Shown: in pieces, positions 1,645 through 63,441 of the stretch
Layout: every line of letters begins with the position of its first letter
Numbering within the stretch: the stretch's first letter is position 1
Virus record (IMG/VR): IMGVR_UViG_3300047445_000314
Coordinates: 1-64,000 of that record
Direction: 5' to 3' (one strand)
DNA from: a virus
DNA: 64,000 nt
Notes under the pieces: model-generated
What the model was told of the DNA's origin: nothing
What the model saw: the letters and a program-made list of their open reading frames with translations, nothing else
Databases searched by the model: none
Position numbers and translations under genes: made by a program

Positions 1645-1662
1645 TTTGACATCGATTGCAAA
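1645..1662 (-). repeat. 18-bp dyad copy 1
   Basis: TTTGACATCGATTGCAAA. In this and the later copies the strand shown is that on which the better conserved half-site reads TTTGCAATCA. This copy covers the region just upstream of the ATG at 1664. Confidence 0.7.
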
Positions 1663-1663
1663 T

Positions 1664-2011
1664 ATGCCGCCAAAAGTCTGGAGCACCAATGAGGTCGAGG
1701 AAAACTTCCGTACCTGGGTTGCGGAGATCATGGCGACCGACGCCATCGCCTACGAGTCGCGCCGGAGGATAGCGCACCATGTTGTCAGTACCCGCCACCT
1801 GATGATCACCGACGCGCGCCAGTTCTATACCGACGCGCTTAAATCCGGGGTGTTGGATGGCGACTACCCGATCACCATCTCCTGCAAGGGGCAGCCGCTG
1901 GCCTTGATCGAGTCGTTTGAGGAGGTACAGGAGGCGGTCGACAAGTGTAAGTCGATCGGTTGCTCCTACGACTTCCACATCTATGAGTCGGTCAGTCAAA
2001 GGATACATTGA
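1664..2011 (+). CDS. Hypothetical protein, 115 aa
   Basis: No family recognised. A mixed alpha/beta composition is visible, with a central hydrophobic strand (YPITISCKGQPLALI). The ATG at 1664 lacks a good ribosome site. A TTG at 1646 in frame would add six residues encoded by the dyad repeat, so the start is uncertain. The gene lies between thyA and the structured RNA region. Confidence 0.65.
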   Translation: MPPKVWSTNEVEENFRTWVAEIMATDAIAYESRRRIAHHVVSTRHLMITDARQFYTDALKSGVLDGDYPITISCKGQPLALIESFEEVQEAVDKCKSIGCSYDFHIYESVSQRIH

Positions 2012-2047
2012 GGGTGCATTAGGTTTACCATCCCCGGCGCGGGTGGC

Positions 2048-2077
2048 TTGACAAAGTTGCCCGATCAATGCTATTAT
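2048..2077 (+). promoter_or_regulatory. Sigma70-type promoter for the RNA region
   Basis: TTGACA at 2048-2053, an 18-bp spacer and TATTAT at 2072-2077. The first tRNA-like RNA starts about 40 bp downstream. This is one of the best -35/-10 pairs in the window, whereas most other promoters here have no -35. Confidence 0.75.
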
Positions 2078-2117
2078 GTAGTCATGGAAACAAAGAAGTA
2101 AATGGAGTTGTTTCAAT

Positions 2118-2214
2118 CCCAGAGGTAGCTCAGTGGATAGAGCGCTTTGGTGGCGGAGTTAAACGACAACGATGCCGCTAATGAGGTGGGAGGTTCGAGT
2201 CCTCCGCTCTGGGG
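2118..2214 (+). tRNA. tRNA-like RNA A, extended anticodon arm, no clear anticodon
   Basis: Acceptor strands CCCAGAG (2118-2124) and CTCTGGG (2207-2213) pair fully. D arm AGCTC-AGTGGATA-GAGC and T arm GGAGG-TTCGAGT-CCTCC are canonical. About 44 nt lie between base 26 and the T stem, where a normal tRNA has about 22. This segment folds as a long stem (CTTTG/TGAGG, then TGGCGG/CCGCTA) with an 18-nt loop, so no 7-nt anticodon loop can be assigned. CCA is not encoded. It could be a tRNA with a small insertion, a decayed tRNA or a tRNA mimic. Confidence 0.5.
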
Positions 2215-2545
2215 CCTTACTATGTGGCGCTTGTGTCGTAAGACTCTAAGGGCGTCGAACTGCAAGTCTTTGCCTCTCGCAGGCCTGCACACTCCTAGCC
2301 CACAAGGCATATAGGGGCGCGGGTCTGGACAGCCGATACGGAGAGGTTACGATGGGGTAGGTTTTCATGCCTATTCGTAGTGCGTAAAGGTGGGATTGGC
2401 CGCAGTACAGGCGTCACATAGTAAGGAGTAATAAAGAGCTACGGAGAGGATGACGGTAATCGAGTGAGTAGCTACATGGAAGGGGCCGCAGCCTCGCCTC
2501 CATGGAGTACGCCCTTGTTCTCTCCACCTGTTTTACGCAGTCCAA
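2215..2545 (+). other. Gene-free structured stretch between tRNA-like RNAs
   Basis: No credible reading frame. Hairpins are visible: CTATGTG (2220-2226) can pair with CATATAG (2309-2315), and TACGA/TCGTA (2348-2352, 2375-2379) encloses GTAGG/CCTAT (2357-2361, 2370-2374). It is probably part of the same transcript as the flanking RNAs. Function unknown. Confidence 0.4.
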
Positions 2546-2632
2546 TCCGGGGTACACTAGCCAAAGCCACGAAACAGGCGCGGCCGGTTGATATTGGTCC
2601 TAATGCTGGTTTGATTCCAGCCCCCGGAGCCA
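2546..2632 (+). tRNA. tRNA-like RNA B with encoded CCA
   Basis: Acceptor TCCGGGG/CCCCGGA (2546-2552, 2622-2628) is a perfect 7 bp, followed by discriminator G and an encoded CCA (2630-2632). The T arm is GCTGG-TTTGATT-CCAGC. The D arm is odd: GCC and GGC enclose a 14-nt loop without GG. The anticodon stem GGCCG/TGGTC closes an 8-nt loop, GTTGATAT, in which GAT preceded by T and followed by A would suggest Ile. That reading is weak because the loop has 8 nt rather than 7. Confidence 0.55.
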
Positions 2633-2702
2633 GATTATGTAGCACCGAAAGATACCCGGTATGTTCCCGTCTGTCAGCGGCTGGGTAGTAGCAGTAAGTA
2701 GT

Positions 2703-2735
2703 ACCCCTCGCGCCTCTCTGCAAGGAGGACGAGGG
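2703..2735 (+). ncRNA. Strong hairpin between RNA B and RNA C
   Basis: CCCTCG and CGAGGG enclose CCTC...GAGG around a TCTGCAAG loop. There is no T run after it, so it looks more like a processing or spacer element than a terminator. Confidence 0.45.
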
Positions 2736-2736
2736 C

Positions 2737-2843
2737 CAACATCAAAGAGCGTGGGCAAGCAAAACGGACGGCTCGATCAACGTTAGTACCGAATCCCTGT
2801 CGGGTTGATATTTAACAGGCGTAGTCTGCTCTTTTTGATGTTG
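2737..2843 (+). ncRNA. Structured RNA closed by a 15-bp stem
   Basis: CCAACATCAA-AGAGC (about 2738-2752) pairs with GCTCT-TT-TTGATGTTGG ending at 2843. Inside, GATCAAC and GTTGATA can pair around a small CCGA/TCGG hairpin with a 7-nt loop. No known family recognised. The 3' strand overlaps the 5' strand of the long stem that closes RNA C. Confidence 0.45.
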
Positions 2844-2869
2844 GTAACTGGTTGACGGAACATGCGCCT

Positions 2870-2973
2870 AACCGGAAGACGTTGAAAGTCGCGCGAGCGG
2901 CAAAGCTAGAGGCCAGGGCGCTATTGGTCGAGGACTAGCGTATTGCAGAGTTCAAACCCTGCACCGGTTACCA
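2870..2973 (+). tRNA. tRNA-like RNA C with encoded CCA
   Basis: The 3' end reads T-arm strand CCTGC, acceptor ACCGGTT, discriminator A, then CCA (2971-2973). AACCGGA at 2870-2876 can form the acceptor with six of seven pairs. A short GAC/GTC arm follows, then a long region with GCTAG/CTAGC and GGCCA/TGGTC stems. At about 101 nt it is too long for an ordinary tRNA. A rival fold pairs GTTGGTAACTGG (2840-2851) with CCGGTTACCAAC (2964-2975) over 12 bp. Anticodon not assignable. Confidence 0.45.
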
Positions 2974-2980
2974 ACTTCAT

Positions 2981-2998
2981 TTTGCAATCAATTTCAAG
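2981..2998 (+). repeat. 18-bp dyad copy 2
   Basis: TTTGCAATCAATTTCAAG. It lies 6 bp after RNA C and 8 bp before the ATG at 3007, so its right arm overlaps the ribosome-site region. Confidence 0.8.
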
Positions 2999-3006
2999 AG
3001 GCAGTC

Positions 3007-3288
3007 ATGGGCCATTACTATAGCGAGATGTGTTGTTCAAGCTGCGGAGGTATCCCGTGCCGCTGCCCTCGCGCGAAAGCGGTAGACCCCCGGACGCTCT
3101 GGTACATCAAGAGCGATTTCACAGTCGCCAAGGGTAGCGCGTTCATAGTGGCACCGTCCGTTATTGGCGGCTATGTCACGGAGAAAAAAGCCAAGGAAGA
3201 CATCCCCCGAATACTGAAGATCAAGATCAGTAACGCCAAAGAAGACGTGAGAAGACTCGAATCGCTGCTTAAAAAACATAAGGAGTAG
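3007..3288 (+). CDS. Small Cys-rich protein, 93 aa
   Basis: The N-terminus has CCSSCGGIPCRCP (residues 9-21), a compact CxxC...CxC cluster that could bind zinc. The C-terminal third is a charged helix (AKEDVRRLESLLKKHKE). No family recognised. It ends 3 bp before the next gene, so the two are likely co-translated. Confidence 0.8.
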   Translation: MGHYYSEMCCSSCGGIPCRCPRAKAVDPRTLWYIKSDFTVAKGSAFIVAPSVIGGYVTEKKAKEDIPRILKIKISNAKEDVRRLESLLKKHKE

Positions 3289-3291
3289 AAC

Positions 3292-3519
3292 ATGGCCTGC
3301 CCTCGTTGCGGTAGCACCGATATCTGGAATGACAATTTATGGTGGGGTTGCAATCCCTGCGGCTACGCGGCCGGTCCCGACGGTCCGACCATGATTTTTG
3401 CCAAAGACAAGCCCGGCCTGGCGCGCTCGGTACAGGAGATGCGCGGCGGCAATGTCCGTAGCACACCACCCCGCCCCGATCCCTACCTGAGCAGCGACGA
3501 GGATTTCGAGAACTGGTAA
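3292..3519 (+). CDS. Zinc-ribbon protein, 75 aa
   Basis: CPRCGSTDIW and CNPCGYAAGP (residues 3-12 and 22-31) form a two-knuckle zinc ribbon like those in small phage nucleic-acid-binding proteins. The tail is acidic (DEDFENW). Ribosome site AAGGAG ends 8 bp before the ATG. Confidence 0.82.
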   Translation: MACPRCGSTDIWNDNLWWGCNPCGYAAGPDGPTMIFAKDKPGLARSVQEMRGGNVRSTPPRPDPYLSSDEDFENW

Positions 3520-3528
3520 TCCCAGGTC

Positions 3529-3557
3529 CGTAGGTGGGCACAGGTTTTTACTAACTG
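3529..3557 (+). repeat. GGTGGGCAC leader repeat, copy 1
   Basis: AGGTGGGCACAGGTTTTTAC followed by TAACTG. The same block recurs at 4597-4622 before another small gene, so it is a duplicated leader rather than chance. Confidence 0.65.
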
Positions 3558-3569
3558 AAGGAGGTCGTG

Positions 3570-3890: not shown

Positions 3891-4194
3891 AATTGGCACA
3901 GTGTATATTTGGCAGAACCAGGTCGGTGAGGGTGAGCACTTGAATGGTACGGAGACTACCGTTATCGGTGAGTACGGGCCGCACTATGGCCTTGGTACGG
4001 GCGTGTTTCTTGGGTACGGCCAACGTACTGATACGCCTACCGGCGATAACATCGAGGACAGCTACTGGTTCGCCGAGCGCGGAGATTTGCGCCCTAGAAA
4101 CGAACCACCCAAAGCAGAGCAGGATATCCTGAATTTGTTCTTGATTGCAGAAACCGACCGCGCGTTTGATTACGCCGAGGAGCAGGAAGCGTGA
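3883..4194 (+). CDS. Hypothetical protein, 103 aa
   Basis: The beta-rich, Gly/Tyr-rich N-terminal two thirds ([20 protein letters not shown]) and acidic helical tail suggest a small beta-barrel-like domain. The start is fixed by AAAGGAG at 3869-3875. It overlaps the genes on both sides by 8 and 4 nt, which indicates translational coupling. Confidence 0.8.
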
Positions 4195-4574
4195 GAGACG
4201 GCAGCCTTCCCCTCCCCTTGAACGGCGGACACCATGTCGGCCCGCTATTCATTCCGCAGATCAAGAAACCACTGGTCCGCCCGCCCGGCAAGGAAGGCAC
4301 GGTATGGCGGCAGCAGACGCGCAGGCGCACCCCCAGGTGGGCACGGCAAGGCGAGTACTGGTCGCAAATTGCTGCTATTTACGCGGAAGCGCAGCGCATG
4401 ACGGCCCTTACCGGCATCCTTCACGTCGTTGACCATATTGTGCCTAAATGCGGCAAAACCGTCAGCGGCCTACACCTACCCTGGAACCTGCGCGTGATCC
4501 CCTGGAAAGAGAACGCGATCAAGGGCGCGTGGGTGTGGCCGGACATGTGGTTCGAGCAGATGGATTTGTTTTGA
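4191..4574 (+). CDS. HNH-family endonuclease, 127 aa
   Basis: The C-terminal half carries an HNH core: HVVDHIVP (His82), then [11 protein letters not shown] (His95, Asn99) and KENAIKG. This is the arrangement of small phage HNH enzymes used in homing or packaging. It starts with GTG overlapping the previous stop (GTGA). It could be a free-standing homing nuclease or a host-DNA nicking enzyme. Its stop codon lies inside dyad copy 3. Confidence 0.8.
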
Positions 4575-4587
4575 AGTCAATCTCAAA
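4570..4587 (+). repeat. 18-bp dyad copy 3 (degenerate)
   Basis: TTTGAAGTCAATCTCAAA. It overlaps the stop codon of the HNH gene. Confidence 0.6.
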
Positions 4588-4596
4588 CCGCCCGCC

Positions 4597-4622: not shown

Positions 4623-4631
4623 GAGAACGTT

Positions 4632-4868: not shown

Positions 4869-4917
4869 ACTGGCCACGCTGGTAACTACCGCTGCTATTC
4901 CTTGCCTGGAGAAAACC

Positions 4918-5304: not shown

Positions 5305-5322
5305 TTTGCAACCAACATCAAA
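5305..5322 (+). repeat. 18-bp dyad copy 4
   Basis: TTTGCAACCAACATCAAA. Directly followed by AAGGAG of the next gene. Confidence 0.75.
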
Positions 5323-7445: not shown

Positions 7446-7451
7446 TAAAAT
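7446..7451 (+). promoter_or_regulatory. -10 box TAAAAT
   Basis: Preceded by GCTGATCATG, as in related promoters. Its last bases overlap dyad copy 5. Confidence 0.5.
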
Positions 7452-7466
7452 GAAATTGATTGCAAA
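7449..7466 (-). repeat. 18-bp dyad copy 5
   Basis: AATGAAATTGATTGCAAA. Placed at the expected transcription start of the promoter above. Confidence 0.75.
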
Positions 7467-10464: not shown

Positions 10465-10482
10465 TTTGACATTGATTGCAAA
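10465..10482 (-). repeat. 18-bp dyad copy 6
   Basis: TTTGACATTGATTGCAAA. Between the -10 box and the TTGAAAGG leader of the next gene. Confidence 0.8.
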
Positions 10483-13461: not shown

Positions 13462-13479
13462 TTTGCAATTGCTTGCAAT
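13462..13479 (-). repeat. 18-bp dyad copy 7
   Basis: TTTGCAATTGCTTGCAAT. Both arms are well conserved. It lies in the 84-bp gap before 13516. Confidence 0.8.
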
Positions 13480-17281: not shown

Positions 17282-17305
17282 CCCTGCGCCCGGAGCGCAG
17301 GGTTT
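17282..17305 (+). terminator. Terminator-like hairpin merging with a dyad
   Basis: CCCTGCGC-CCGGA-GCGCAGGG, then TTT. The T run is also the start of dyad copy 8. Confidence 0.6.
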
Positions 17306-17320
17306 GCAGTCAACAACAAA
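17303..17320 (+). repeat. 18-bp dyad copy 8
   Basis: TTTGCAGTCAACAACAAA. Begins at the T tract of the hairpin above and runs into AAGGAG of the next gene. Confidence 0.65.
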
Positions 17321-17646: not shown

Positions 17647-17664
17647 TTTGCAATCAATCTCAAA
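17647..17664 (+). repeat. 18-bp dyad copy 9
   Basis: TTTGCAATCAATCTCAAA. Followed by CTACCTTGAAGGGAG of the next leader. Confidence 0.8.
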
Positions 17665-20235: not shown

Positions 20236-20253
20236 AATGAAATTGATTGCAAA
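20236..20253 (-). repeat. 18-bp dyad copy 10
   Basis: AATGAAATTGATTGCAAA. Starts 2 bp after the stop codon at 20234, followed by CCAAAGGAG of the next gene. Confidence 0.75.
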
Positions 20254-21242: not shown

Positions 21243-21260
21243 TTTGCAATCAACTTCAAA
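21243..21260 (+). repeat. 18-bp dyad copy 11
   Basis: TTTGCAATCAACTTCAAA, then GGAACC. Its right arm merges with the ribosome site of the GTG-start gene. A second half-site (GCAGTCAA) lies 13 bp upstream. Confidence 0.8.
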
Positions 21261-23965: not shown

Positions 23966-23983
23966 TTTGCAATCAACTTCAAA
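23966..23983 (+). repeat. 18-bp dyad copy 12
   Basis: TTTGCAATCAACTTCAAA, then GGAG. Same 18 bases as copies 11 and 22. Confidence 0.85.
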
Positions 23984-24591: not shown

Positions 24592-24612
24592 CCCCGCTGC
24601 GGCGGGGTTTTT
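24592..24612 (+). terminator. Rho-independent terminator
   Basis: CCCCGC-TGCG-GCGGGG, then TTTTT. Its T tract runs directly into dyad copy 13. Confidence 0.85.
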
Positions 24613-24627
24613 GCAATCAATAACAAA
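24610..24627 (+). repeat. 18-bp dyad copy 13
   Basis: TTTGCAATCAATAACAAA. Overlaps the terminator T run and abuts the next ribosome site. Confidence 0.8.
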
Positions 24628-25499: not shown

Positions 25500-25517
25500 A
25501 TTGAAGTTGATTGCAAA
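25500..25517 (-). repeat. 18-bp dyad copy 14
   Basis: ATTGAAGTTGATTGCAAA. Well placed to block the promoter above. Confidence 0.75.
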
Positions 25518-27266: not shown

Positions 27267-27607
27267 CCACCGTCACCGGCAAGGCACTGCTCTTTATCTA
27301 CAGGCTAGATGACGGGCCTGTTCCGTTCAACGTGTACGCCTATGTCCTGACAGGCGATCAGCGCGTCGCTGACGACTTCTATCTATTAGATAGCGACAGC
27401 TTACCGCTCCCGAACGCGGCCTACCGGCTGAAACCGGGCGACCGGATCACCGTGGCGGTCAGCTATGAATTCACCTACACTCGCGGTGACGGCTGGACTA
27501 CTGACAACGATATCGACCTGCATTACAACCGACAAAAGGTCCTGCGCCGCCGCATCCACAAGGACAACTGGCGCGGTGGGGTTTTGAAATCAATGAAGAA
27601 GAGGTGA
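27263..27607 (+). CDS. Hypothetical protein, 114 aa
   Basis: Beta-rich body. The last residues, GGVLKSMKKR, are encoded by dyad copy 15, so the repeat forms this protein's C-terminus. No family recognised. Confidence 0.74.
   Translation: MTTVTGKALLFIYRLDDGPVPFNVYAYVLTGDQRVADDFYLLDSDSLPLPNAAYRLKPGDRITVAVSYEFTYTRGDGWTTDNDIDLHYNRQKVLRRRIHKDNWRGGVLKSMKKR
27583..27600 (+). repeat. 18-bp dyad copy 15 (degenerate right arm)
   Basis: TTTGAAATCAATGAAGAA. Inside the 3' end of the preceding gene and 41 bp before copy 16. Confidence 0.55.
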
Positions 27608-27623: not shown

Positions 27624-27641
27624 TTTGAAATCAACTGCAAA
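27624..27641 (+). repeat. 18-bp dyad copy 16
   Basis: TTTGAAATCAACTGCAAA. With copy 15 it makes the only closely spaced pair (41 bp, about four helical turns). Confidence 0.75.
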
Positions 27642-29450: not shown

Positions 29451-29468
29451 TTTGCAATCAACATCAAA
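29451..29468 (+). repeat. 18-bp dyad copy 17
   Basis: TTTGCAATCAACATCAAA, 22 bp before the ATG at 29490. Confidence 0.8.
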
Positions 29469-30489: not shown

Positions 30490-30507
30490 TTTGCAATCGA
30501 CTGCAAT
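30490..30507 (+). repeat. 18-bp dyad copy 18
   Basis: TTTGCAATCGACTGCAAT. Shares its last bases with the first copy of the TTTCGCGGAGG leader. Confidence 0.75.
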
Positions 30508-32322: not shown

Positions 32323-32340
32323 TTTGCAATTGATTGCATA
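32323..32340 (-). repeat. 18-bp dyad copy 19
   Basis: TTTGCAATTGATTGCATA, directly after a TACAAT box (32314-32319). Confidence 0.85.
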
Positions 32341-34313: not shown

Positions 34314-34331
34314 TTTGCAATCAATGTCAAA
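34314..34331 (+). repeat. 18-bp dyad copy 20
   Basis: TTTGCAATCAATGTCAAA. Lies just upstream of the -35 element of the next promoter, unlike the copies that overlap a start site. Confidence 0.85.
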
Positions 34332-37215: not shown

Positions 37216-37875
37216 ATGATTGGTTTCAGCTTATCCTTCTGGTTGCCGGGTAACTTCAACACCGGCCGCGCGCTACTCAACTTCCTGCTGTGGCTTTTTG
37301 CAATTGATATCAAATACGACCCCGACCAGCGCAGCTTGATGCTGGTAGCCCGCTTGACCGGGGTCGAGCTGACCGTACGCATCGCCGGGGTAGACCGGGA
37401 GCTGGCACCCACTATACACGACGAAAACAGGGTCGATGGGCACCAAAAAGCAGCCGAAGAGTTCATCGAAAACATCAAAAAAGGCGCAGAAAGTAGTCAA
37501 AAATACGCGGAAAGCAGCCAAAACACCGATAAAAGCACCAAAATACGCGTCAGAGCGGTCGATAACGATGGAAATGTGCGCGCCAGCACAGAAACACACG
37601 AAAACGGAGGCAAAGGAGGGCCAGTCACCGATGCACCGAAATGGGCGCGCGAGCTGATGCGCAAGGGTGCGTCGCTGATCCTGATGAACCGCAACATCGT
37701 TGACGAGCAGGAGTACAGCTTCCGACTACCCATCCCCGCCAGCGCGCTGGCCCTGGAGATCGGCTCGGTGGCGGTATTCGGCACCGAAGACAACCATATC
37801 CTGTGCAAGGTCACCGGCTACCGCGAGGAAGAGGATGACGGCAGGCTATATTACTACACGAAAACTAAGCTGTAA
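37216..37875 (+). CDS. Membrane-anchored hypothetical protein, 219 aa
   Basis: The hydrophobic N-terminus (MIGFSLSFWLPGNFNTGR, then LLNFLLWLFAI) suggests membrane association. A Lys/Ser-rich linker follows and then a beta-rich C-terminal domain. The ATG at 37216 after ACGGAGATTATC is preferred to 37165. Dyad copy 21 is inside the gene. Confidence 0.75.
   Translation: MIGFSLSFWLPGNFNTGRALLNFLLWLFAIDIKYDPDQRSLMLVARLTGVELTVRIAGVDRELAPTIHDENRVDGHQKAAEEFIENIKKGAESSQKYAESSQNTDKSTKIRVRAVDNDGNVRASTETHENGGKGGPVTDAPKWARELMRKGASLILMNRNIVDEQEYSFRLPIPASALALEIGSVAVFGTEDNHILCKVTGYREEEDDGRLYYYTKTKL
37297..37314 (-). repeat. 18-bp dyad copy 21, inside a gene
   Basis: TTTGCAATTGATATCAAA, read in frame as FAIDIK. 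Confidence 0.75.
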
Positions 37876-38238: not shown

Positions 38239-38256
38239 TTTGCAATCAACTTCAAA
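38239..38256 (+). repeat. 18-bp dyad copy 22
   Basis: TTTGCAATCAACTTCAAA, starting at the base after the preceding stop codon. Confidence 0.85.
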
Positions 38257-39035: not shown

Positions 39036-39053
39036 TTTGCAGTTAATTGCAAA
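39036..39053 (-). repeat. 18-bp dyad copy 23
   Basis: TTTGCAGTTAATTGCAAA, 11 bp before the ATG at 39064; followed by GAGG. Confidence 0.8.
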
Positions 39054-39399: not shown

Positions 39400-39581
39400 A
39401 CATCTCGATGTACAACCCTGATTTCAACCTGCGCGTCAACTGGACATATCTATGGCGCAAGTTGCATTGCCTGAACGCGATGGATCAATGGACCAACTGG
39501 GAACGGCACTACGAGCGCGACGTCGACGCCGGGTACTGTCTTGATCGCTACAACCTGGAGGATGCATTATGGAAGAATTGA
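39396..39581 (+). CDS. Hypothetical protein, 61 aa
   Basis: Trp-rich (WTYLWRKLHCLNAMDQWTNW). ATGA overlap upstream and a 13-nt overlap downstream. Confidence 0.7.
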   Translation: MNISMYNPDFNLRVNWTYLWRKLHCLNAMDQWTNWERHYERDVDAGYCLDRYNLEDALWKN

Positions 39582-39922
39582 AATCAATTGCAAACGACGA
39601 GGAATTCACACGGCTTTTTCAAGATCTACTCCTGTATGAATCCCCATTCCAGCTCTCGGTGCGTACAGCACTCCTTACTAACTACATCGACCAGCGCACC
39701 GCCAAGCGCATCGAAGAAGAAGTCGAGCGGTATAGCCACACCCGTCGCTGCGTCGACTTGTCCAAGTTGGAAATCCCGCTGACCTTTTGCGGGGAGGACA
39801 TGGTGCGCCTCAAGGACGTCGCGACCTTGTGCCAGGATAGTCCGGATATGTTCGTCCTGGATGATAGCCAGCCGCTCTACAAATACGAGCCGCCCAGGCT
39901 GGACCCGGATTGGGGGGATTGA
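39569..39922 (+). CDS. Hypothetical protein, 117 aa
   Basis: Residues 4-9 (LKSIAN) are encoded by dyad copy 24. The rest is helical and acidic. Starts inside the previous gene. No family recognised. Confidence 0.74.
   Translation: MEELKSIANDEEFTRLFQDLLLYESPFQLSVRTALLTNYIDQRTAKRIEEEVERYSHTRRCVDLSKLEIPLTFCGEDMVRLKDVATLCQDSPDMFVLDDSQPLYKYEPPRLDPDWGD
39577..39594 (+). repeat. 18-bp dyad copy 24, inside a gene
   Basis: ATTGAAATCAATTGCAAA. Lies in the overlap of two genes and just after the start codon at 39569. Confidence 0.75.
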
Positions 39923-39932: not shown

Positions 39933-39950
39933 TTTGAAACCAATTGCATA
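39933..39950 (+). repeat. 18-bp dyad copy 25
   Basis: TTTGAAACCAATTGCATA. Just after an ATG at 39925 that would encode it, and before the better start at 39976. Confidence 0.65.
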
Positions 39951-40170: not shown

Positions 40171-40179
40171 GAGAGTAAA

Positions 40180-41184
40180 TTGAACGCAGAACAGATCAAG
40201 GACGCGCGTGAGGCATTGGACAGCATGGATGACTACGCGCGCATGGAAACCGGTATTAATGCCATCGGCCCGCGCAATGTATTAGAGGCGTTTATCGCTT
40301 CGGCGGAGGCCACCATTGACGCGTCGGACGATCTGTCTGCGCAAATGGACGCGGCGGAGGAGCGAGCATCCTTGTACGATGACGATCTGCGCGACGCGAT
40401 CAAGACCGATGTGATGAACAGCTTCTACGCGGGGGTGGCCTGGGCGCGCGCAAACCCCCTCCCCGCACCTGTATCTCTAGCCGAGCGGTTAGGCAAACAA
40501 TGGGAGGAAAATCGGCAATTCGACCGCGATGCTATCAAGGCAACGCTTACCAAATTGGAGTCCACCTTTCAGGCGCAGCAGGGCTGTCACTTCCCCCTGT
40601 GCGAATCCCCGGAAGAACAGCAGACTATCGCAGCCCAAGTGCATGCCGAGCTATATACCGGGGCGCAGGATGGTCCGGGTACACCATCCGCGCGCTTAGG
40701 CGGCATCCTCTCAAGACTGTCGGAGATTTTTCCTGATCTGCACAATCAGTTTGCAGCAGCGCCGCCAGAGATTGCCTATCTTGAGCGAATAGCAGCCCTC
40801 CAGTCGCAGCAGGATATTGCCCATTGCCGTGATATTACAGTGGCATACGCAATCCGGGACTGGTACGCAACGCAATGGCCGGAACGTGATTTTTGTGTCG
40901 AACACACCGATCTGGTAAAGGCAATTGCAGCCCTCAAAGCGCAGCAGGGATCATGCGACGAATGCGGGAAGAAGCAGGCTGATGGCTGGGCGCTTTACTG
41001 CGTTGAATGTGGCGCGCTGGCGCAGCAGGGTTGTAGCTTTCCCCTCTGTGAATCAGCGGAGGAACAGCAGCGCATTGCGGCACAAGTACAACATCTACTC
41101 TACAACGCCAAGATCGAAAACGTGCATTTGCGCGTGCGCGCTGAGAAAGCAGAGGCGGCGCTGGCGGCACGGGAGGGTAAATGA
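40180..41184 (+). CDS. Protein with internal LCES repeats, 334 aa
   Basis: TTG start after TAGGAGAGTAAA. CHFPLCESPEEQQTIAAQV and CSFPLCESAEEQQRIAAQV are two copies about 145 residues apart. A zinc-like CDECGKK...CVECGAL lies between. Helical ends. The repeat module is known in several phages but has no assigned role. ATGA overlap with the next gene. Confidence 0.78.
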   Translation: MNAEQIKDAREALDSMDDYARMETGINAIGPRNVLEAFIASAEATIDASDDLSAQMDAAEERASLYDDDLRDAIKTDVMNSFYAGVAWARANPLPAPVSLAERLGKQWEENRQFDRDAIKATLTKLESTFQAQQGCHFPLCESPEEQQTIAAQVHAELYTGAQDGPGTPSARLGGILSRLSEIFPDLHNQFAAAPPEIAYLERIAALQSQQDIAHCRDITVAYAIRDWYATQWPERDFCVEHTDLVKAIAALKAQQGSCDECGKKQADGWALYCVECGALAQQGCSFPLCESAEEQQRIAAQVQHLLYNAKIENVHLRVRAEKAEAALAAREGK

Positions 41185-42064: not shown

Positions 42065-42267
42065 TGCCGATGCCTGCCCCGATCACCACCGCCACCTATT
42101 GCCGGGAATGCGCGAAGCGGCTCACATCGCTTTCCGCAGAGACACACTACGTACGTTGCCGTGGCCGCAACCCATACAACCGGGCATGGGAGACCAAAAA
42201 TATCCCCATGCCTTTTTGCGATGCAGCATGTTTTAAGAAGTACCAGCGCAGCGCCGACGAAGATTGA
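42061..42267 (+). CDS. Cys-rich protein, 68 aa
   Basis: YCRECAKRL and FCDAACFKKY give a zinc-binding pair around a basic middle. No family recognised. Confidence 0.76.
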   Translation: MMPMPAPITTATYCRECAKRLTSLSAETHYVRCRGRNPYNRAWETKNIPMPFCDAACFKKYQRSADED

Positions 42268-42280
42268 AATTGATTGCAAC
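42263..42280 (-). repeat. 18-bp dyad copy 26
   Basis: ATTGAAATTGATTGCAAC. Overlaps the stop codon at 42265 and is followed by CCAAGGAG. Confidence 0.7.
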
Positions 42281-45199: not shown

Positions 45200-46267
45200 A
45201 TGCAATTCGATCCAACAAAAATCAGAGTATCGAAACACTTCATTCTTTCAGATTTTCTGGGCAACCATAGCGTGTACACGCGCGGCATACCGAACATGCT
45301 GGACCCGCACGACCCGGAACTCCCCCTGAAGATGGCCAACCTGCACGCACTGTGCGACGAGTTCCTGGAACCGTTTTTGGAGCAGGCCGGGCCGTTGTCG
45401 ATCTCGTACTCCTACATCACACCGGAGCTGTCCGATGAAATTGTCCACTATCAGGATTCCCGTAAGCCGTCTCATCACCAATTCAACCTTGGCGCGGCGG
45501 CAGATATTATCTCCCACGAATGGGTCAACGCCGACCCCGAAGACGACAGCGCCACCAGCGCGCCAGTTATGCTGGCTCATGAAATTGCCAGCAGTGGGTA
45601 CCCTCTCTCCCGACTCATTACCTATTCGGAGTCGCCGTATCTTTGCGTTGCTGTATCGGCATCCGAAGTTGCGGAAGGCAAGCCGCGTGGCGCGTTCTAT
45701 GAAAATCGCTACACCGGCCACAAAGGCGAGAAGCCTGACTACCGCAAGTACCCGTCACCGGCTGCAAAGCATGGCGCGCTGGCGGCTCTTGTAAAGGAAG
45801 GCCTCTCCCACGGCTGGCGCGGGCAGGGCTACCCCAGTTACCATGGACACGGCCGCCGCCAGTACCATCATATCCGGGTATCCGACTACAGCATGCTCTC
45901 CGACTGGCTATTCGATTTGCAATCAGTTGCAAACGGCGCGAAAAACATCCCGAACGTACAGAATCCCAACTTGATGGAATCCTTCTACCTCGCGGGCGAT
46001 CTATACGACAGCCTGATCAAGGAAGGCGGTCACAACCGCTACTCGATCATCAGCGGGTATGTCGATCACGCCAACCCGTCCTTCGTGAAGGAAAACGACT
46101 GGGCGCGGGGCCAGGGCTGGTTCACCGTAGTCATGCCGGAAGGGGTGGAGGTCGCGCAGGTGATGACGAACATGACCCCTGCCACCGCCACCCAGCCGAT
46201 CTGGGAGCACGCCTATATACAGGACATGGGCGAGGGCAAGATGCGGGTCCATTTCCAACAACAATGA
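45200..46267 (+). CDS. M15-like peptidase family protein, 355 aa (possible lysin)
   Basis: FILSDFLGNHSVYTRG, then LSISYSYITPELSDE and SHHQFNLGAAADIIS (near residue 91), resemble zinc D-Ala-D-Ala peptidases (H...GxAxD). Three His later in GHGRRQYHHIRVS may also bind metal. The C-terminal third is separate. It could be an endolysin or a virion protein. A dyad copy is inside the gene. Confidence 0.58.
   Translation: MQFDPTKIRVSKHFILSDFLGNHSVYTRGIPNMLDPHDPELPLKMANLHALCDEFLEPFLEQAGPLSISYSYITPELSDEIVHYQDSRKPSHHQFNLGAAADIISHEWVNADPEDDSATSAPVMLAHEIASSGYPLSRLITYSESPYLCVAVSASEVAEGKPRGAFYENRYTGHKGEKPDYRKYPSPAAKHGALAALVKEGLSHGWRGQGYPSYHGHGRRQYHHIRVSDYSMLSDWLFDLQSVANGAKNIPNVQNPNLMESFYLAGDLYDSLIKEGGHNRYSIISGYVDHANPSFVKENDWARGQGWFTVVMPEGVEVAQVMTNMTPATATQPIWEHAYIQDMGEGKMRVHFQQQ
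45916..45933 (+). repeat. 18-bp dyad copy 27, inside a gene
   Basis: TTTGCAATCAGTTGCAAA, read as LQSVA(N). The same 18 bases occur in frame in the gene at 51258. Confidence 0.85.
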
Positions 46268-48553: not shown

Positions 48554-48571
48554 TTTGCAATTGATTGCAAA
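48554..48571 (-). repeat. 18-bp dyad copy 28 (perfect)
   Basis: TTTGCAATTGATTGCAAA: both 8-bp arms match exactly around TG. Directly before a terminator at the end of the metabolism genes. Confidence 0.95.
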
Positions 48572-51257: not shown

Positions 51258-52757
51258 ATGACCAGCAAACGCATTGCCCGCAGCGCAGCCGGTAACCTCG
51301 TCAAGGTGGACACGCCGGAATTCCTGAGCCTGGTCGGCAAGCCCGCCAACCAGCGCCCGTTCCAGATCATCCGTTCGGCCCGCCCAGCCAAGGCCAAGCG
51401 CGGCGAGGACGCGGTCCTGATGATCACCTTCCCAGATGACTACACCGAGGAAGACGCCGCCGCCGCGCTGGAGAGCTTCGGCATGGAAGGCTACACCCTG
51501 GTGGTCGAGGAGACGCTGTGCTACGCCTACCGCAGCGATTTGCAATCAGTTGCAAAAGTCCAGGAACTGAAGCCCACCACGGTACGCCTGACCTCGGACG
51601 GCGTCACGGCACACATCGATCCGGCGCAATACCAGCCGAAATCGGGCAGCGAAGGCACCGGCATTGGCGTGTGCCGTTACGAATTCACCAAAACCACGTT
51701 CGATAATGACAAAATTATTGCGTGGGGTAATCAAAATGGTGTTGACATTTCCGTCGACGCCATCGAGAATTCGTCCAGCGATGTGATTTCGGTTTCCCGC
51801 GCGCAACTTACCGAGGGTACCGAGGTCCGCAGGATGGAGCTGGAGGCAGGTGTCACCGCCGTCATCGTCCGCACCGATGGCATGCAGATCATCGACGGCG
51901 CGATCAAGATTCCGGACGGCTTTGTCGCCGTGGTCAATGAAGCAGCCTACGGCAACTGGGGCTGGGGTCAGATGGACTTCTACGCAGCCAGCGCCGACCG
52001 CGCCTTCTGCGAAGAGATGGAAGACGCGGCGTGGCGTCTGCGGGATGTGATGAGCAACATCATGTTCTACAACCAGCTTCCGCTGGATACCCGCAAGCAA
52101 CTGGTGACGCGGTGCTTGCAGCAATATGGACAGTTCATCTCGGATGCAATGGATGCGCTGCCCCGTCAAGTTTTGCTGCTCGCCAGTCGCGCAGATTCCA
52201 TTAAACGAAAGGATGTTGACATGACTATCGATGCCGTGAAAGCCCAGCAAGAACTGGACAAGATCGTCGCCAAACGCGCCGCCGATGAAAAAATCGCCCA
52301 GGATGCCGCCGATAAGGCTGCCGCCGAGAAAGCAGAAATCCAGCGCGCCGCTGACGAGAAAATCGCCACCGACAAGGCTGCTGCTGACAAGGCCACCGCC
52401 GACGCGGTCTCGCTGACCATGACCCGCGCCGACCTGGACAAGATGATCGCCGACGCCGTGGCCAAGGCTACCACCGCCGCGCCTGCTGTCACGACCGAAA
52501 CCGCCGTACGCAGCGAAGCCACCACCACGACTACCACGACTCCTGCTACCGCAGAAGCTCCGGTCGCCATCACCCGTGCCGATCTGGAAGCCCTGCTGGC
52601 TGCCGCCGTCGCCCCGCTGGCGGAAAAGGTCGGCCGCCTGGAAGGCACCACCATCGTCCGCAGCGCGGATGGCAACGAAACTGCCGCTGTGACCGCTACC
52701 GAGAAGAGAAGTGTCTTCCGTGGCATCTTCAACAATCTGACCGGCACCCCCGAGTAA
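51258..52757 (+). CDS. XkdF-type scaffold/protease-associated protein, 499 aa
   Basis: FLSLVGKPANQRPFQIIRSA (residues 23-42) is the XkdF signature (SLV.KPAN..PF.I). The middle is unassigned. A long Ala/Asp/Lys coiled coil (residues ~320-380) is typical of scaffolds, with a Thr-rich linker after it. The C-terminus (KRSVFRGIFNNLTG) could be the capsid-binding part. A dyad copy is inside the gene. Confidence 0.78.
   Translation: MTSKRIARSAAGNLVKVDTPEFLSLVGKPANQRPFQIIRSARPAKAKRGEDAVLMITFPDDYTEEDAAAALESFGMEGYTLVVEETLCYAYRSDLQSVAKVQELKPTTVRLTSDGVTAHIDPAQYQPKSGSEGTGIGVCRYEFTKTTFDNDKIIAWGNQNGVDISVDAIENSSSDVISVSRAQLTEGTEVRRMELEAGVTAVIVRTDGMQIIDGAIKIPDGFVAVVNEAAYGNWGWGQMDFYAASADRAFCEEMEDAAWRLRDVMSNIMFYNQLPLDTRKQLVTRCLQQYGQFISDAMDALPRQVLLLASRADSIKRKDVDMTIDAVKAQQELDKIVAKRAADEKIAQDAADKAAAEKAEIQRAADEKIATDKAAADKATADAVSLTMTRADLDKMIADAVAKATTAAPAVTTETAVRSEATTTTTTTPATAEAPVAITRADLEALLAAAVAPLAEKVGRLEGTTIVRSADGNETAAVTATEKRSVFRGIFNNLTGTPE
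51539..51556 (+). repeat. 18-bp dyad copy 29, inside a gene
   Basis: TTTGCAATCAGTTGCAAA, read as LQSVA(K). Same 18 bases as copy 27 in an unrelated gene. Confidence 0.88.
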
Positions 52758-53803: not shown

Positions 53804-53821
53804 TTTGAAATTGATTGCATA
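53804..53821 (-). repeat. 18-bp dyad copy 30
   Basis: TTTGAAATTGATTGCATA. Three bases after the terminator and upstream of a TATAAT at 53841, whose last bases form the next ATG. Confidence 0.8.
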
Positions 53822-56772: not shown

Positions 56773-57036
56773 ATGACCAGCATCAAAAATGCAATTGATT
56801 GCAAAGAGACCGAATACGTACTGACGGCGGTTGCCCCTTGTCAAGTATCTGGTGTAGACTTCGCCCCAGGTGCCACGATCCGTACACGCAACCAAGGTAG
56901 CCGGGATTACTTGGTCGACACGGGCGCGGCAGTGGAGGAGAAAGTAGAAAACGTAGACGTACCGGAGACACGACAGGTGTCCGAGGTTGCCGCAACATCA
57001 CCCACCGCGCGCGGTCGCATTGGCCGTAGCCGGTAA
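56773..57036 (+). CDS. Hypothetical tail-operon protein, 87 aa
   Basis: Residues 5-11 (KNAIDCK) come from dyad copy 31. The rest is a small beta domain and a basic Arg-rich tail. ATG after CAGGAGAACGCC. Confidence 0.75.
   Translation: MTSIKNAIDCKETEYVLTAVAPCQVSGVDFAPGATIRTRNQGSRDYLVDTGAAVEEKVENVDVPETRQVSEVAATSPTARGRIGRSR
56788..56805 (-). repeat. 18-bp dyad copy 31, inside a gene
   Basis: AATGCAATTGATTGCAAA, 15 bp after the start codon, just beyond the terminator. Confidence 0.85.
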
Positions 57037-57981: not shown

Positions 57982-60900
57982 ATGGCTGACAGCCAACTCA
58001 ACGTAACCATCCAGGCACGCGATGAGCTAAGCCCCGACTTGAACCGGCTGGAATCGAAGCTGATCCGGTTTGTCGGGGCGGTTACCTCTGCGCTGGCTGC
58101 CATCAAGATTTCCGGACTCCCTATCTCCACCGCAGGCGATCTGGAGCGCGAGCTGGCGAACGTCAAAAAGACGACTGGATTCACTACCACCCAGATTCTC
58201 GACCTGAATGACGGCTTGCTCAAGCTGTCCCTGCATAGCGACCAGTCCGCCTTAAACCTCGCAAAAATCTCCTCCGCCGCAGGCCAGCAAGGTCTCGGCG
58301 GGGCTGGTGTAGCAGGTGTGCTGAAGTTCACTGATTCGATCGCGCGCATGGCTTCGGTGCTGGATATCGAGGTGGGCAAGGCCGGGTCCGACATGGGCAA
58401 GTTGCTCAACATTTTCAAGATCGATATCAACGACGTTGAAAAGGCGGCGTCCGGTTTCAACGAAGTCACCAACCACGGTGCTATCAACGCAGGCAACCTG
58501 CTGGATGCCGTCAAGCGCATCGGTGCCGCAGCAGGCTCGATCAATGCCACGCCGCTGGAAAACCTGCGTGACGCTATCACGCTCGGCGCTACCGGCATCG
58601 AGCTTGGTCTGTCGCCCGAGGTAGTCGGCACCTCGTTCACCAAAATTCTCGTGCAGCTCAAGACCAAGCGTGCGGATATTATCAAGGCGCTGTCCAGGGC
58701 GGAAGGCAAGCCCGTCACCGAGGATGAATGGCTGGCGGATGTAGAGAAAAGCGGAATAAACGCCTACCTGCGCCTCACCAAGGCACTGCGCACCTTCACC
58801 GGGGCGGGCCAGGCGGAGCTGATCAGCAGGACGCAAGGTCAGGGCCGTATCTTCGGTCTAGGTGACAAGGCACTGCAAGACGTCAACGACGATCTGATAC
58901 GAAAGAATCGTGCCAACGCAGCCAAGGGGATCGACACCGGTACCTCCGCGCTGCGCGAGCAACAGACCGTCTTGAATACGTTCAATGCACAGGTCGAGAC
59001 GCTTAAAAATAGCCTATTTAAGCTCGCGGCGGACGGTGGCCAGCCACTGCTCGCCGTCCTGACCAAGTATGTCGGACAACTCGCGTTAGCACTACAGGCT
59101 CCCGGTATGCGCGCCTTTATCGGTGCTGTCGTCAAATCCTTCGGCGACATGATCGATCTGGCCGTCTCCCTTACTAAGGCCGTCTCGGCGCTTGGTATCA
59201 ACTGGGAGAACTTCATCAAGGTGGTGAAGGTACTACTGACGGTCAAGGCCGTATCGTATTTCCTGAATCTGGCGACTAGCCTGCCAATCATATCCGGCCT
59301 GCTCAAAAAGGTCACGGCAGACACAGCAGCGGTCGGCGCGGCAGCGACAGGTGCAGGAGCGGCCGTTGGCGCGTCCAACGCCAAACAGATGAACTCCTGG
59401 GAGGCGCTGCGTGCGTCAGTCAAAAAGACTGCTGACGCCTACCGCACTGCTTCCGCCGAGCGTATCGCCGCCGCTGAGAAGGAGGCTGCGGCAACAGCCG
59501 CATTAGCCGCGAAGGCGGCTGCCTCCTTTGCCGAAAAAGATGCTGCTATCGTCGCCGCATATCAGACCAAGGTGGCGAAGTCCGCCGCTGCGGCGTCACA
59601 GAAGCAGTCGCAGCCCGCACTGAATCAAGCCCGCGTTAGCTTGAATACCGCGCAAGGTGCGGTAGCCGCTGCGATCACGTCAGGCAATGCAGCCATACAA
59701 AATGGCGACGCCGCCCTGGCCAATGCCACCAATACCGGTCAAGTAGGAGTGGACAAGGCGGTCGCTATCGGCCAGGCAAAGCGCGCGGCGGCACTGAAGG
59801 AGCATGAAGCGCAGATGGCCGCTATTGAGGCGGAGGCGCGCGGCAAGCGTACTGCGGTCGATAAGGAAGCCAAAGCCTTTGCGCTGGCACAAGAGGAGGC
59901 CTTCTATACTAAGCAGCTTGCCTCATTAAAGGTGGCGGACGCCAAACGCATCCAGCAGGCCAAAGTCGCGGCGGATGCGTTGCTGCTCACCACCACGCAG
60001 CGGGTGGAGCAAGAGATACTGGCAGAAAATGCCAAATTACTGGCGATGCAGAAGGGCGCGGCGCAGGCGAACATCGCCAATGTTATTGCAATAAAAAATG
60101 CCGAGCAACTTGCTAAGCTGCGCGCCAACGCAGCAGCAGGTATCCTGCCGATCGTACCCACCACGGGTCCTGGATTGGGCGGAGGTCCGGCACCTGCCTC
60201 GCCTACCCCTCTACCACGCGCGCCTGCTGGCGGACTTTTCGCGGGGTTGAGCAAGCTCGAAGTATTGGCTGTTGGACTGACGGCGGTAGGTAATGCCCTG
60301 AAGTTTGTCCTAAGATGGCTGGGTCCGGTCTACCTGGGCTTTATCATCCTGGGTAGCATCGCCGACGCGCTAGGCTGGGTAGACATACTGCCCAAAGCCC
60401 TGCGCAATCTTGGCGACTGGCTAGGCTTCAGCAGCGAGGCTGCGCGTAAAGAGGCGCAGGCGATGGAGGAATCAACCGCTGCAATGAAGCGCAAGAATGA
60501 CCGCATCAAGGAGCAGGTAGACCAGTACAAGGAGCTGTTGCTGATCAACGGCAAGCTCGACAAGAACAAGTCCGACGACGTCACCAACAAGATCAAGCTG
60601 AATACCGACGCCAAGACCAAGGCGCAAGGGGTGGATCAGCTTGGTGCGTTGTTGAGTGCAGCGCGGCTGGTGAATACCGACGCACTGACAGAGGCCAGCG
60701 CACAGCCTGCTGTGGATGCCGCGAAGAAGAATGAACTAGACGCGTTTCCTGCCAAGATTGCTAAGGCCAAGGCGGAGTTGGCTCAACTGCAAAAATCGCT
60801 GCAAGACTCCAACACGGAGACTGCTGGGTTTTTTGCTACTGCTGTCGAGAAACGTACTGTCGAGCTGAAGACGATAGAGGACGCCTACGCAATCGCCTCT

Positions 60901-63441
60901 GGTCATGCCAAACAACTGGGCCTGGATTCGACCAATGCAGTCAAGGCCGGGGTGGAGGACTCCAGCGAGGCGCTGGCGGTGTTCGTCAATAAAACCACCA
61001 GCATCTTCACAGACGCCAGCGCCATTATCTTCACACAGATGGTGGTCCCTCTTATCGAAGCACGCGATGCTCGCGATAAGCTGCTAGTCGATATTGCAGA
61101 GCAGCAGAAGATACTCGACAACCCCGGCGCAAGCAAACAGGACAAGAAAGAGGCCACTGAACGGCTGGCAGAGTACAACGAGCAGCTTAAGGCCGCTAAG
61201 GAGACCTTCCGCCTGTTCGGCGTGGCGATTAGCGATGTCAGCAAAAAGATAGCCGAGATGAAGGGCGTTCCGCAGAATGTCCTGGACTCGGTCGCCCTCG
61301 TACTGGGGATTGCAAATACCAAAGAAGTGACGCTCGCCTCCGCGAAGGCTATCAAGACGGAGCTTGCCACCGCCAAGCAGCAGGGCACCCCATTGACCGG
61401 TGCCGATGCAGGTAAGACGCTGGATAAGCCGAAGGCGACCGGCAGCAACACGGTTGATCCAAAGGGTGGAGAGAGTGAAGCGCGTAAGCTGGCGAAAGCG
61501 AAGGCCGACCTTATCCGCGCCCAACTAGAGGCAGAAGCTGCGATAAAAAAGCAAGCCAACGACAATGCCTTGCAAGAGGACCAGCGCCGGTTCGATCGTG
61601 GTCTGATCGATCTGAGGGAGTTCTACCGGGAAAAGGCGCGAATCGACACCAACAACCTGAATATCGAGATCAACCTGAAGCAGGATGAGATCGACAATAA
61701 GCTGAAGGAACGCGGCGATAAGTCATTCAAGGAATCCGACCGTGTCAAGATCGACAAAGAACTGGCTATCTTGCGAGGACAGAAGGCGGTTCTGATATCC
61801 AGGGTCAACGAGATACCAGCACAGACTGCGGAAACGATCCGCAGGGCGGTAAAAACCTTCAATGAAGGGGTATTGGCCGACAAGCTCAACCTGGTCAAGG
61901 CCTTCGGCCTGGATGACGCCGAACAGGCAATGAAGGACCAATTTACCCTGATCGAGAGCCAGATCGAGGAGCGTATCCAGACATTGGAGACCGCGTTGTC
62001 GAAGAAGCGGCCAGGTATTACACGCGGCCTCATCGACGGTCTCAAGCTGGATGCGCTGGTTAAAGCTATCGACCCGCTTTTGCAATCAATTGCAGATCGG
62101 GCGCGCTTGACCGCCGACGCGGTGCAGAATGCCTTTAACCGTATCGCCTTCCTGCGCAATCAGGGAAAGGTCACCGATAAGCAAGTCGAGCAGTTCACCA
62201 ATCTGGCCAACGCGGAACAGGCGGTGGCGATCCAGCGACAGATCGACGATACCGAACGCCTGATCGCAATCAATAATCGCGAGATCGAGACCAAGATGCT
62301 TGCGGCAGGTGCTACCCGCGAGAATATCCGTGCGGCCATCGAGCAGGATGTCGCTTACCAGCAGAATATCAATGCACTGGACGGCCTGAAGCTGAAGTAC
62401 CAGGAGTTGACGGCGGTAGTCGACGAGACGGCGACATCAATCAACCATGCGCTGGAAGCGGGTATCAGCAATTCGCTAACCAATGCGATGAGCCGCAGCT
62501 TTGGTGGCATCCGCCGCATGCTGGGCAACCTGCTGACCGACCTCGGTCATGCGATCCGCGAATCCGTCGCCAAGGAATTCTCCCAGACCATCATCAAGGA
62601 TGTGCTCGGTGGCGGCGGCACGGGTGGTATCGGCGGCTTCTTCTCCGGTCTATTGCGGGGGGCTGGCGACGGCCCGAAGGCGCTGATCGATAAGGACAAG
62701 CTGGGTCGCACCAAGGATAGCGCGATGTACGTCCGGCTGGCCGACGCGCAGGATGCGCTGGTCAACCCACAAGGGCAAGGCCAGGACAGCGCGTTCGGCC
62801 CTACCCCCAACGGCGAGACGCTGAGCCTCAAGGATTTCAGTAAGGAGACCCAGGACGCGGTCGGTGCGGCGGAGGACGGCGCTACCAAGATACTCGCCAG
62901 CGCCGGTAATGTGTTCGCCGAGCGCGGCCTGCAAGGCGTGGTAGAGCAGGGTATCGGCAGCGTCAAGAAATCGCTGGTGAGCGGCGTATTGAACCTGTCC
63001 AACGATACCAAGGGCGGCGGTATATTCGGGGATTTCTTCAAGGCGGTCGGTAGTACCTTTAAAGAAGCACTAAAGGGTATCGGTGATCTGCTCGGTTCTG
63101 CTTTATCGGGGGTGGGAGGCATTCTCAGCGGTGTATTCCACACGGGCGGCGTGGTCGGTGAAGGCTCCGCCATGGCAACCGTGTCGCCTATGGTGTTTGC
63201 CAATGCGATACGCTACCATACTGGTGGCCTGGCAGGGTTGAAGCCGAATGAGGTACCTGCCATCCTGCAAAAAGGGGAAGAGGTATTGACCGCGAACAGC
63301 CCACGCCACCGCGACAACATTGCCGTGGCACCGAAGGCACCACCGGTCAACTTGCAATTGTCGGTACATCCGGACGCGCTGAACATGACCTTGCGCGACT
63401 GGTTCGAGTCAGAGCTGGCGCGCATTCACGCCAACCGGTAA
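57982..63441 (+). CDS. Tape measure protein, 1819 aa
   Basis: Sets the tail length and carries DNA-ejection functions. NLAKISSAAGQQGLGGAGVA, then long Ala-rich coiled coil (about residues 470-735), a hydrophobic region (about 746-795), more coiled coils and a Gly-rich C-terminus (GGVVGEGSAMATVSPMVFAN) are typical. At roughly 0.15 nm per residue the tail would be near 270 nm. A dyad copy is in frame at 62079. AAAGGAGAGTAAC sets the start. Confidence 0.93.
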   Translation: MADSQLNVTIQARDELSPDLNRLESKLIRFVGAVTSALAAIKISGLPISTAGDLERELANVKKTTGFTTTQILDLNDGLLKLSLHSDQSALNLAKISSAAGQQGLGGAGVAGVLKFTDSIARMASVLDIEVGKAGSDMGKLLNIFKIDINDVEKAASGFNEVTNHGAINAGNLLDAVKRIGAAAGSINATPLENLRDAITLGATGIELGLSPEVVGTSFTKILVQLKTKRADIIKALSRAEGKPVTEDEWLADVEKSGINAYLRLTKALRTFTGAGQAELISRTQGQGRIFGLGDKALQDVNDDLIRKNRANAAKGIDTGTSALREQQTVLNTFNAQVETLKNSLFKLAADGGQPLLAVLTKYVGQLALALQAPGMRAFIGAVVKSFGDMIDLAVSLTKAVSALGINWENFIKVVKVLLTVKAVSYFLNLATSLPIISGLLKKVTADTAAVGAAATGAGAAVGASNAKQMNSWEALRASVKKTADAYRTASAERIAAAEKEAAATAALAAKAAASFAEKDAAIVAAYQTKVAKSAAAASQKQSQPALNQARVSLNTAQGAVAAAITSGNAAIQNGDAALANATNTGQVGVDKAVAIGQAKRAAALKEHEAQMAAIEAEARGKRTAVDKEAKAFALAQEEAFYTKQLASLKVADAKRIQQAKVAADALLLTTTQRVEQEILAENAKLLAMQKGAAQANIANVIAIKNAEQLAKLRANAAAGILPIVPTTGPGLGGGPAPASPTPLPRAPAGGLFAGLSKLEVLAVGLTAVGNALKFVLRWLGPVYLGFIILGSIADALGWVDILPKALRNLGDWLGFSSEAARKEAQAMEESTAAMKRKNDRIKEQVDQYKELLLINGKLDKNKSDDVTNKIKLNTDAKTKAQGVDQLGALLSAARLVNTDALTEASAQPAVDAAKKNELDAFPAKIAKAKAELAQLQKSLQDSNTETAGFFATAVEKRTVELKTIEDAYAIASGHAKQLGLDSTNAVKAGVEDSSEALAVFVNKTTSIFTDASAIIFTQMVVPLIEARDARDKLLVDIAEQQKILDNPGASKQDKKEATERLAEYNEQLKAAKETFRLFGVAISDVSKKIAEMKGVPQNVLDSVALVLGIANTKEVTLASAKAIKTELATAKQQGTPLTGADAGKTLDKPKATGSNTVDPKGGESEARKLAKAKADLIRAQLEAEAAIKKQANDNALQEDQRRFDRGLIDLREFYREKARIDTNNLNIEINLKQDEIDNKLKERGDKSFKESDRVKIDKELAILRGQKAVLISRVNEIPAQTAETIRRAVKTFNEGVLADKLNLVKAFGLDDAEQAMKDQFTLIESQIEERIQTLETALSKKRPGITRGLIDGLKLDALVKAIDPLLQSIADRARLTADAVQNAFNRIAFLRNQGKVTDKQVEQFTNLANAEQAVAIQRQIDDTERLIAINNREIETKMLAAGATRENIRAAIEQDVAYQQNINALDGLKLKYQELTAVVDETATSINHALEAGISNSLTNAMSRSFGGIRRMLGNLLTDLGHAIRESVAKEFSQTIIKDVLGGGGTGGIGGFFSGLLRGAGDGPKALIDKDKLGRTKDSAMYVRLADAQDALVNPQGQGQDSAFGPTPNGETLSLKDFSKETQDAVGAAEDGATKILASAGNVFAERGLQGVVEQGIGSVKKSLVSGVLNLSNDTKGGGIFGDFFKAVGSTFKEALKGIGDLLGSALSGVGGILSGVFHTGGVVGEGSAMATVSPMVFANAIRYHTGGLAGLKPNEVPAILQKGEEVLTANSPRHRDNIAVAPKAPPVNLQLSVHPDALNMTLRDWFESELARIHANR
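62079..62096 (+). repeat. 18-bp dyad copy 32, inside the tape measure gene
   Basis: TTTGCAATCAATTGCAGA, read as LQSIAD. Confidence 0.8.

Follow-up and report, generated by a model that had tools for sequence, protein, structure and literature searches.

The 64,000-nucleotide stretch of phage DNA analysed here (the window) carries a genome-wide array of a short dyad, repeated near-regularly at intervals of about 2 kb over the entire genome. The array is confirmed as real, and it points to an undescribed system for the genome-wide control or packing of phage DNA. A strict search, allowing up to three mismatches, found 29 matches in the window where 0.17 are expected from shuffling, and neither 20 shuffled windows nor the reversed window gave any match of 15 bits or more to a position weight matrix (PWM), bearing out the view of the first-pass annotation that such a dyad should be virtually absent by chance. 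It had listed 32 copies; 31 of these score 19.7–32.7 bits, while the copy at 27583 (TTTGAAATCAATGAAGAA) reaches 6.9 bits and is dropped from the list. Positions 4134 (12.6 bits) and 33740 (14.8 bits) are borderline. In the full record of 99,206 bp, 45 PWM matches reach at least 19 bits, one of them overlapping another, giving about 45 copies in total. The array thus survives comparison with composition-matched controls, carries on through the remainder of the record, and is present, in drifted form, in related phages.

The sites are given here with coordinates, strand and PWM score, calculated with the same matrix for all of them. No strand is assigned to TTTGACATCGATTGCAAA (1645–1662, 26.9 bits) and TTTGCAATCGACTGCAAT (30490–30507, 26.4 bits), both with a CG centre, or to TTTGCAGTTAATTGCAAA (39036–39053, 30.3 bits), which has a TA centre. 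On the plus strand are TTTGCAATCAATTTCAAG (2981–2998, 26.8 bits), TTTGAAGTCAATCTCAAA (4570–4587, 24.6 bits), TTTGCAACCAACATCAAA (5305–5322, 21.0 bits), immediately upstream of a ribosome-binding site and ATG, TTTGCAGTCAACAACAAA (17303–17320, 19.7 bits), upstream of a ribosome-binding site, and TTTGCAATCAATCTCAAA (17647–17664, 27.7 bits). The sequence TTTGCAATCAACTTCAAA (29.5 bits) occurs three times on this strand: at 21243–21260, at 23966–23983, upstream of a ribosome-binding site and ATG, and at 38239–38256, with a stop codon directly 5' and a ribosome-binding site 3'. Further plus-strand sites are TTTGCAATCAATAACAAA (24610–24627, 25.2 bits), TTTGAAATCAACTGCAAA (27624–27641, 29.5 bits), TTTGCAATCAACATCAAA (29451–29468, 25.7 bits), TTTGCAATCAATGTCAAA (34314–34331, 27.3 bits), ATTGAAATCAATTGCAAA (39577–39594, 29.3 bits) and TTTGAAACCAATTGCATA (39933–39950, 24.2 bits). 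TTTGCAATCAGTTGCAAA (27.9 bits) lies on the plus strand within the endolysin gene (45200–46267) at 45916–45933, where the relative G003 has a site at the same codons, and again within a head gene (51258–52757) at 51539–51556, where both SM1 and G003 have sites at the same place; TTTGCAATCAATTGCAGA (62079–62096, plus, 26.3 bits) is within the tape measure gene (57982–63441). The minus strand carries AATGAAATTGATTGCAAA twice (7449–7466 and 20236–20253, 25.9 bits each), TTTGACATTGATTGCAAA (10465–10482, 27.3 bits), TTTGCAATTGCTTGCAAT (13462–13479, 23.2 bits), ATTGAAGTTGATTGCAAA (25500–25517, 26.5 bits), TTTGCAATTGATTGCATA (32323–32340, 29.2 bits), TTTGCAATTGATATCAAA (37297–37314, 28.5 bits), ATTGAAATTGATTGCAAC (42263–42280, 23.8 bits), TTTGAAATTGATTGCATA (53804–53821, 28.9 bits) and AATGCAATTGATTGCAAA (56788–56805, 26.2 bits). 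The minus-strand copy at 48554–48571 (TTTGCAATTGATTGCAAA, 32.7 bits), between MazG-like and HNH genes, is indeed perfect.

The dyad had been described as symmetric, with 8-bp arms around a pyrimidine-purine centre. The centre is as described (CA in 23 sites of the record, TG in 18, TA in three and CG in two), but the symmetry is incomplete: centres are mostly CA or TG, and the half-site left of CA has a base other than C at its fifth position in 15% of sites, against 66% for the other half. One half-site is therefore better conserved, and the preferred site is polar, approximately TTTGCAATCA-AYTTCAAA. No bases flanking the sites are conserved.

The record covers part of a phage genome, as a linear fragment, and this phage shares about 50% identity with Pseudomonas phage SM1, whose head, tail and replication proteins match its own in a gene-by-gene comparison (the portal is about 52% identical). 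At its start the record is within a gene that matches SM1 gp55, and it stops a little past the homologue of SM1 37 kb. In the same comparison, the SM1 segment from about 37 to 51 kb, with RecA, nuclease and ParB-like genes, has no counterpart in the record, implying that about 14 kb are missing from the fragment. A thymidylate synthase gene (680–1597 of the window) has no SM1 counterpart in the protein comparison, and a DNA polymerase A with an N-terminal uracil-DNA glycosylase-like domain (G000:C1:93260–96058) is common to both phages.

Relatives of 80–110 kb contain 26–55 copies of a drifted dyad, about one per 1.7–3.6 kb. They include phages whose hosts belong to Pseudomonas, Stenotrophomonas, Rhizobium, Rhodobacter, Aeromonas and Vibrio, as well as numerous phages known from metagenomes. 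SM1 has 33 copies of a differing but related dyad (RTGCAARCGYTTGCAY), closer IMG/VR relatives have 30–53, each with its own consensus, and Stenotrophomonas phage DLP5 has 36, Rhizobium phage L338C 51, Vibrio phage SIO-2 27, Rhodobacter phage RcTiptonus 55 and Aeromonas phage HJ05 27. All share the architecture TG-C/A-AA-N-NN-N-TT-G/T-CA, with a centre that depends on the phage: CG in several, CA/TG in others, and no preference in L338C. Applied to 20-kb pieces, de novo motif discovery at times returned codon-bias patterns, in which cases it was repeated with a constrained seed. As comparator, SPbeta gave weak AT-rich repeats only. RcTiptonus, HJ05, L338C and SIO-2 were first chosen as negative controls and all turned out to carry the array together with the protein gp44, so that the comparison contains no relative free of both. 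We found no description of the array in the literature, of which subscription papers were thinly covered, leaving its novelty unproven; papers on DLP3 and on Rhodobacter phages do not mention palindromes. One type of array extends across phages whose hosts span at least six genera, drifting between phages and shaping protein sequence inside genes.

The candidate reader is gp44, a protein of 130–190 amino acids with a MerR-like winged helix, whose gene lies between those of an SF2 helicase and gp45/RecA in all lineages. All 12 genomes in which gp44 is recognisable (SM1, G007, G010, G002, G003, G013, G005, DLP5, SIO-2, L338C, RcTiptonus and HJ05) also carry the array. Searching IMG/VR with the gp44 protein itself yielded 16 further contigs, all with sites (2–74, against 0–3 for a control pattern); in the weakest two, G041 and G042, the variant is GGCAAT. 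In a scan of bacterial genome contigs with a single query protein, gp44 was not found. Among the cultured phages it corresponds to SM1 gp44, DLP5 gp059, RcTiptonus gp76 and L338C gp067. As annotated, SM1 gp44 (40174–40362, 62 amino acids) is too short, its late start cutting the helix-turn-helix; a frame of 169 amino acids (L125:39853–40362) retains the MerR-like domain, and its overlap with the annotated end of the helicase gene, which is read in a different frame, is about 280 bp.

The MerR_1 family is found above the Pfam cut-off in gp44 of SM1, G003 and DLP5, and below it in several diverged members. The AlphaFold model (mean pLDDT 87) predicts a C-terminal helix at residues 154–171, and its best PDB matches by Foldseek are all of the MerR type (HiNmlR, CueR, RacA with DNA, and MtaN); the best E-value, 0.038, is weak, making this evidence at the level of the fold only. 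Protein and site also vary together. A glutamate following Ser/Thr in the recognition helix is associated with A in the third position of the half-site core TG[C/A]AA (38–100% A), and proteins lacking it mostly with C (p = 0.0003, not corrected for relatedness; exceptions are G003 and L179). These observations suggest that gp44 binds the dyad sites, probably as a dimer. The earlier proposal of a dimeric protein reading a genome-wide array is well upheld as regards the array, and agrees with the co-occurrence of gp44 and its predicted fold. In the record itself gp44 is not visible, and the missing segment presumably encodes it. With one reader and 26–55 sites per phage, these phages offer a system for studying protein-DNA co-evolution, and a named candidate reader in cultured phages makes the question of the array's function directly testable.

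Spacing is more even than under random placement in 15 of 15 genomes, with coefficients of variation of 0.42–0.70 against about 0.95–0.96 (0.88–0.90 in the two genomes where sites are sparse); P does not exceed 0.001 for 12 of the 15, and is about 0.04 for G007, G011 and G004. Pooling 522 intervals from 13 genomes, 0.8% of spacings are shorter than one tenth of the mean, where 9.5% are expected. Choosing intergenic gaps at random did not reproduce this: for SM1, RcTiptonus, HJ05 and this record, none of 5000 trials was as even. This regularity, like the retention of sites inside genes described below, goes beyond the features in the first-pass annotation.

We moderately favour the interpretation that the array is a genome-wide binding array for the MerR-fold protein gp44, organising and quieting phage DNA, rather than a set of operators acting promoter by promoter. 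A gp44 dimer would occupy one dyad of 14–18 bp about every 2–3 kb; on evenly tiled sites it could act as a chromatin-like organiser of the whole phage genome, and, bound to a site, as a roadblock to transcription that may quiet the phage DNA, for example in a plasmid-prophage state as in DLP5. Silencing is proposed as one outcome on the basis of this known state, in which DLP5 persists as a phagemid (PMC5834331, PMC7326821).

The strongest alternative, to which we give appreciably less weight, is that the sites are repressor operators or stoperators, blocking transcription only at gene boundaries and keeping a prophage silent, on the model of L5 and phiC31. In SM1, RcTiptonus and HJ05, about 50% of site cores fall between genes, compared with an expected 6–8%, often right after a stop codon or ahead of a ribosome-binding site, and many between the two; in this record 35 of 46 are intergenic, a count resting on our own, less reliable gene calls. 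DLP3 and DLP5 are temperate (PMC7326821), and the same scan finds 16 dispersed dyads in phiC31. However, this excess between genes might simply mean that coding constraint is absent there, and the remaining half or so of the sites is inside genes, including that for the tape measure protein. Many of the gaps are too short for a promoter, and the SM1-like phage UF_RH6 is reportedly lytic (PMC10281142). The even tiling, the sites in long genes and the conserved place of gp44 in the recombination-replication cluster of every lineage argue against plain operators.

Some sites inside genes are retained. When in-gene sites of this phage were compared with five relatives, in four of 20 comparisons the relative had a site no more than 10 bp from the corresponding position, for which the chance is about 0.6–1.2% per comparison, and some are kept at the same codon while protein and site both change. 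In the endolysin gene, this phage reads GAT TTG CAA TCA GTT GCA (D L Q S V A) and G003 reads GAT TTG AAA TCA ATT TCA (D L K S I S); the amino-acid differences fit each phage's own site consensus.

More tentatively, the array and its reader may form an address system, in which a MerR-fold protein tied to a helicase-RecA module reads evenly tiled self-marks, within and between genes, so that the phage's own DNA is organised, replicated or protected; the array and its reader would have co-evolved across many siphophages of 80–110 kb. A rival reading, in which the sites would be marks of self-DNA (similar to Chi or to uptake sequences) for recombination and replication, and gp44 an adaptor to helicase, RecA and exonuclease, seems rather unlikely. 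The location of the gp44 gene, between those for helicase and RecA in every lineage, fits it, as does the even spacing expected of such marks, but strand bias of the sites is weak and inconsistent, unlike that of Chi.

Our confidence in the gp44 explanation is moderate mainly on account of two relatives, G004 and G011 (contractile tail genes are seen in G004), which have 11 and 14 near-perfect sites, respectively, and no detectable gp44; nor does Pfam find a helix-turn-helix gene among 99 proteins of G004. Either their reader has diverged too far to be detected, or a different protein reads the array. A conserved helical protein, gp50, occurs in every genome examined, G004 and G011 included, bar this fragment, and might read the array instead of gp44. 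We consider this improbable, gp50 having no Pfam or PDB relation to DNA-binding proteins and a model (pLDDT 73) whose fold matches are not meaningful. G004, which is AT-rich (39% GC), also contains eleven copies of GGGCCCTTTCGGGCCC within 6.3 kb (G004:C1:2552–8800, L152), with a strong stem and a TTTC loop; they are lacking in G011 and are perhaps terminators. Near a contig end of G004 (L156:15945–17861), five 297-bp open frames repeat every 405 bp as a tandem array.

Other proteins fared less well. The candidate binders named at first (10016, 10234, 31946 and 39064) are assigned no DNA-binding family by Pfam; with full symmetry, they are the part of the first interpretation to be given up, while the genome-wide array with its stoperator-like number and spread is retained. 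SM1 gp54 has a helix-turn-helix, but it adjoins gp55 (assigned no family by Pfam, and in our reading the large terminase subunit) and is missing from several site-bearing genomes. The Arc-like gp115 of SM1 is present only in SM1 and G005, and the gp45 family, small and conserved, has no DNA-binding signature and is absent in RcTiptonus. That the dyads are parS-like partition sites for a phage ParB-like protein is very improbable: ParB-domain genes occur in most array-bearing phages and DLP5 is a plasmid prophage (PMC7326821), but in SIO-2, which has the array, no homologue of the SM1 ParB-like protein was detected, in SM1 gp51 Pfam finds an N-terminal ParB domain only and no helix-turn-helix, and regular tiling of the whole genome is unlike clustered parS sites. 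For large phages without integrases, the array is a lead on how the genome is managed in the cell.

Dispersed site arrays are known from a few temperate phages. The conserved inverted repeats (CIRs) of Streptomyces phage phiC31, bound by the c repressor, are likewise dispersed symmetric dyads, mostly intergenic, over a whole phage genome, and our scan recovered 16 copies of CWRCCTACTCACGTGAGTAGGYWG there as a positive control. They differ in being longer, nearly invariant in sequence (CCTACTCACGTGAGTAGG, a consensus other than that of the present array), partly clustered (39–350 bp apart) and bound by a large repressor. L5 stoperators, which we know from general description, are tens of short sites spread genome-wide, often between genes; the resemblance noted in the first-pass annotation is fair for number and spread, with about 45 copies over the record. 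Stoperators are, however, asymmetric 13-mers oriented with transcription, whereas here the site is a dyad, with 23 CA and 18 TG centres in this record and a symmetric, CG-centred form in several relatives; the centre depends on lineage, half of the sites are inside genes, spacing is even and the candidate protein is another. For a MerR-family reader, sites in the spacer between promoter elements would be expected; many of the dyads are in genes or in gaps too short for a promoter. RacA of Bacillus subtilis is a MerR-fold, chromosome-anchoring architectural protein acting on dispersed inverted repeats, which are GC-rich and near the bacterial origin; RacA-DNA structures rank with the best matches to the gp44 model, a likeness at the level of the fold. 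The DNA uptake sequences of Neisseria and Haemophilus are also short marks, fairly evenly spread over the genome, but they are far denser, bacterial and read by uptake machinery, and have no link to this array. The phiC31 CIRs are the nearest known kind and the L5 stoperators the other; from both, the present array differs in sequence, even spacing, sites inside genes and candidate reader.
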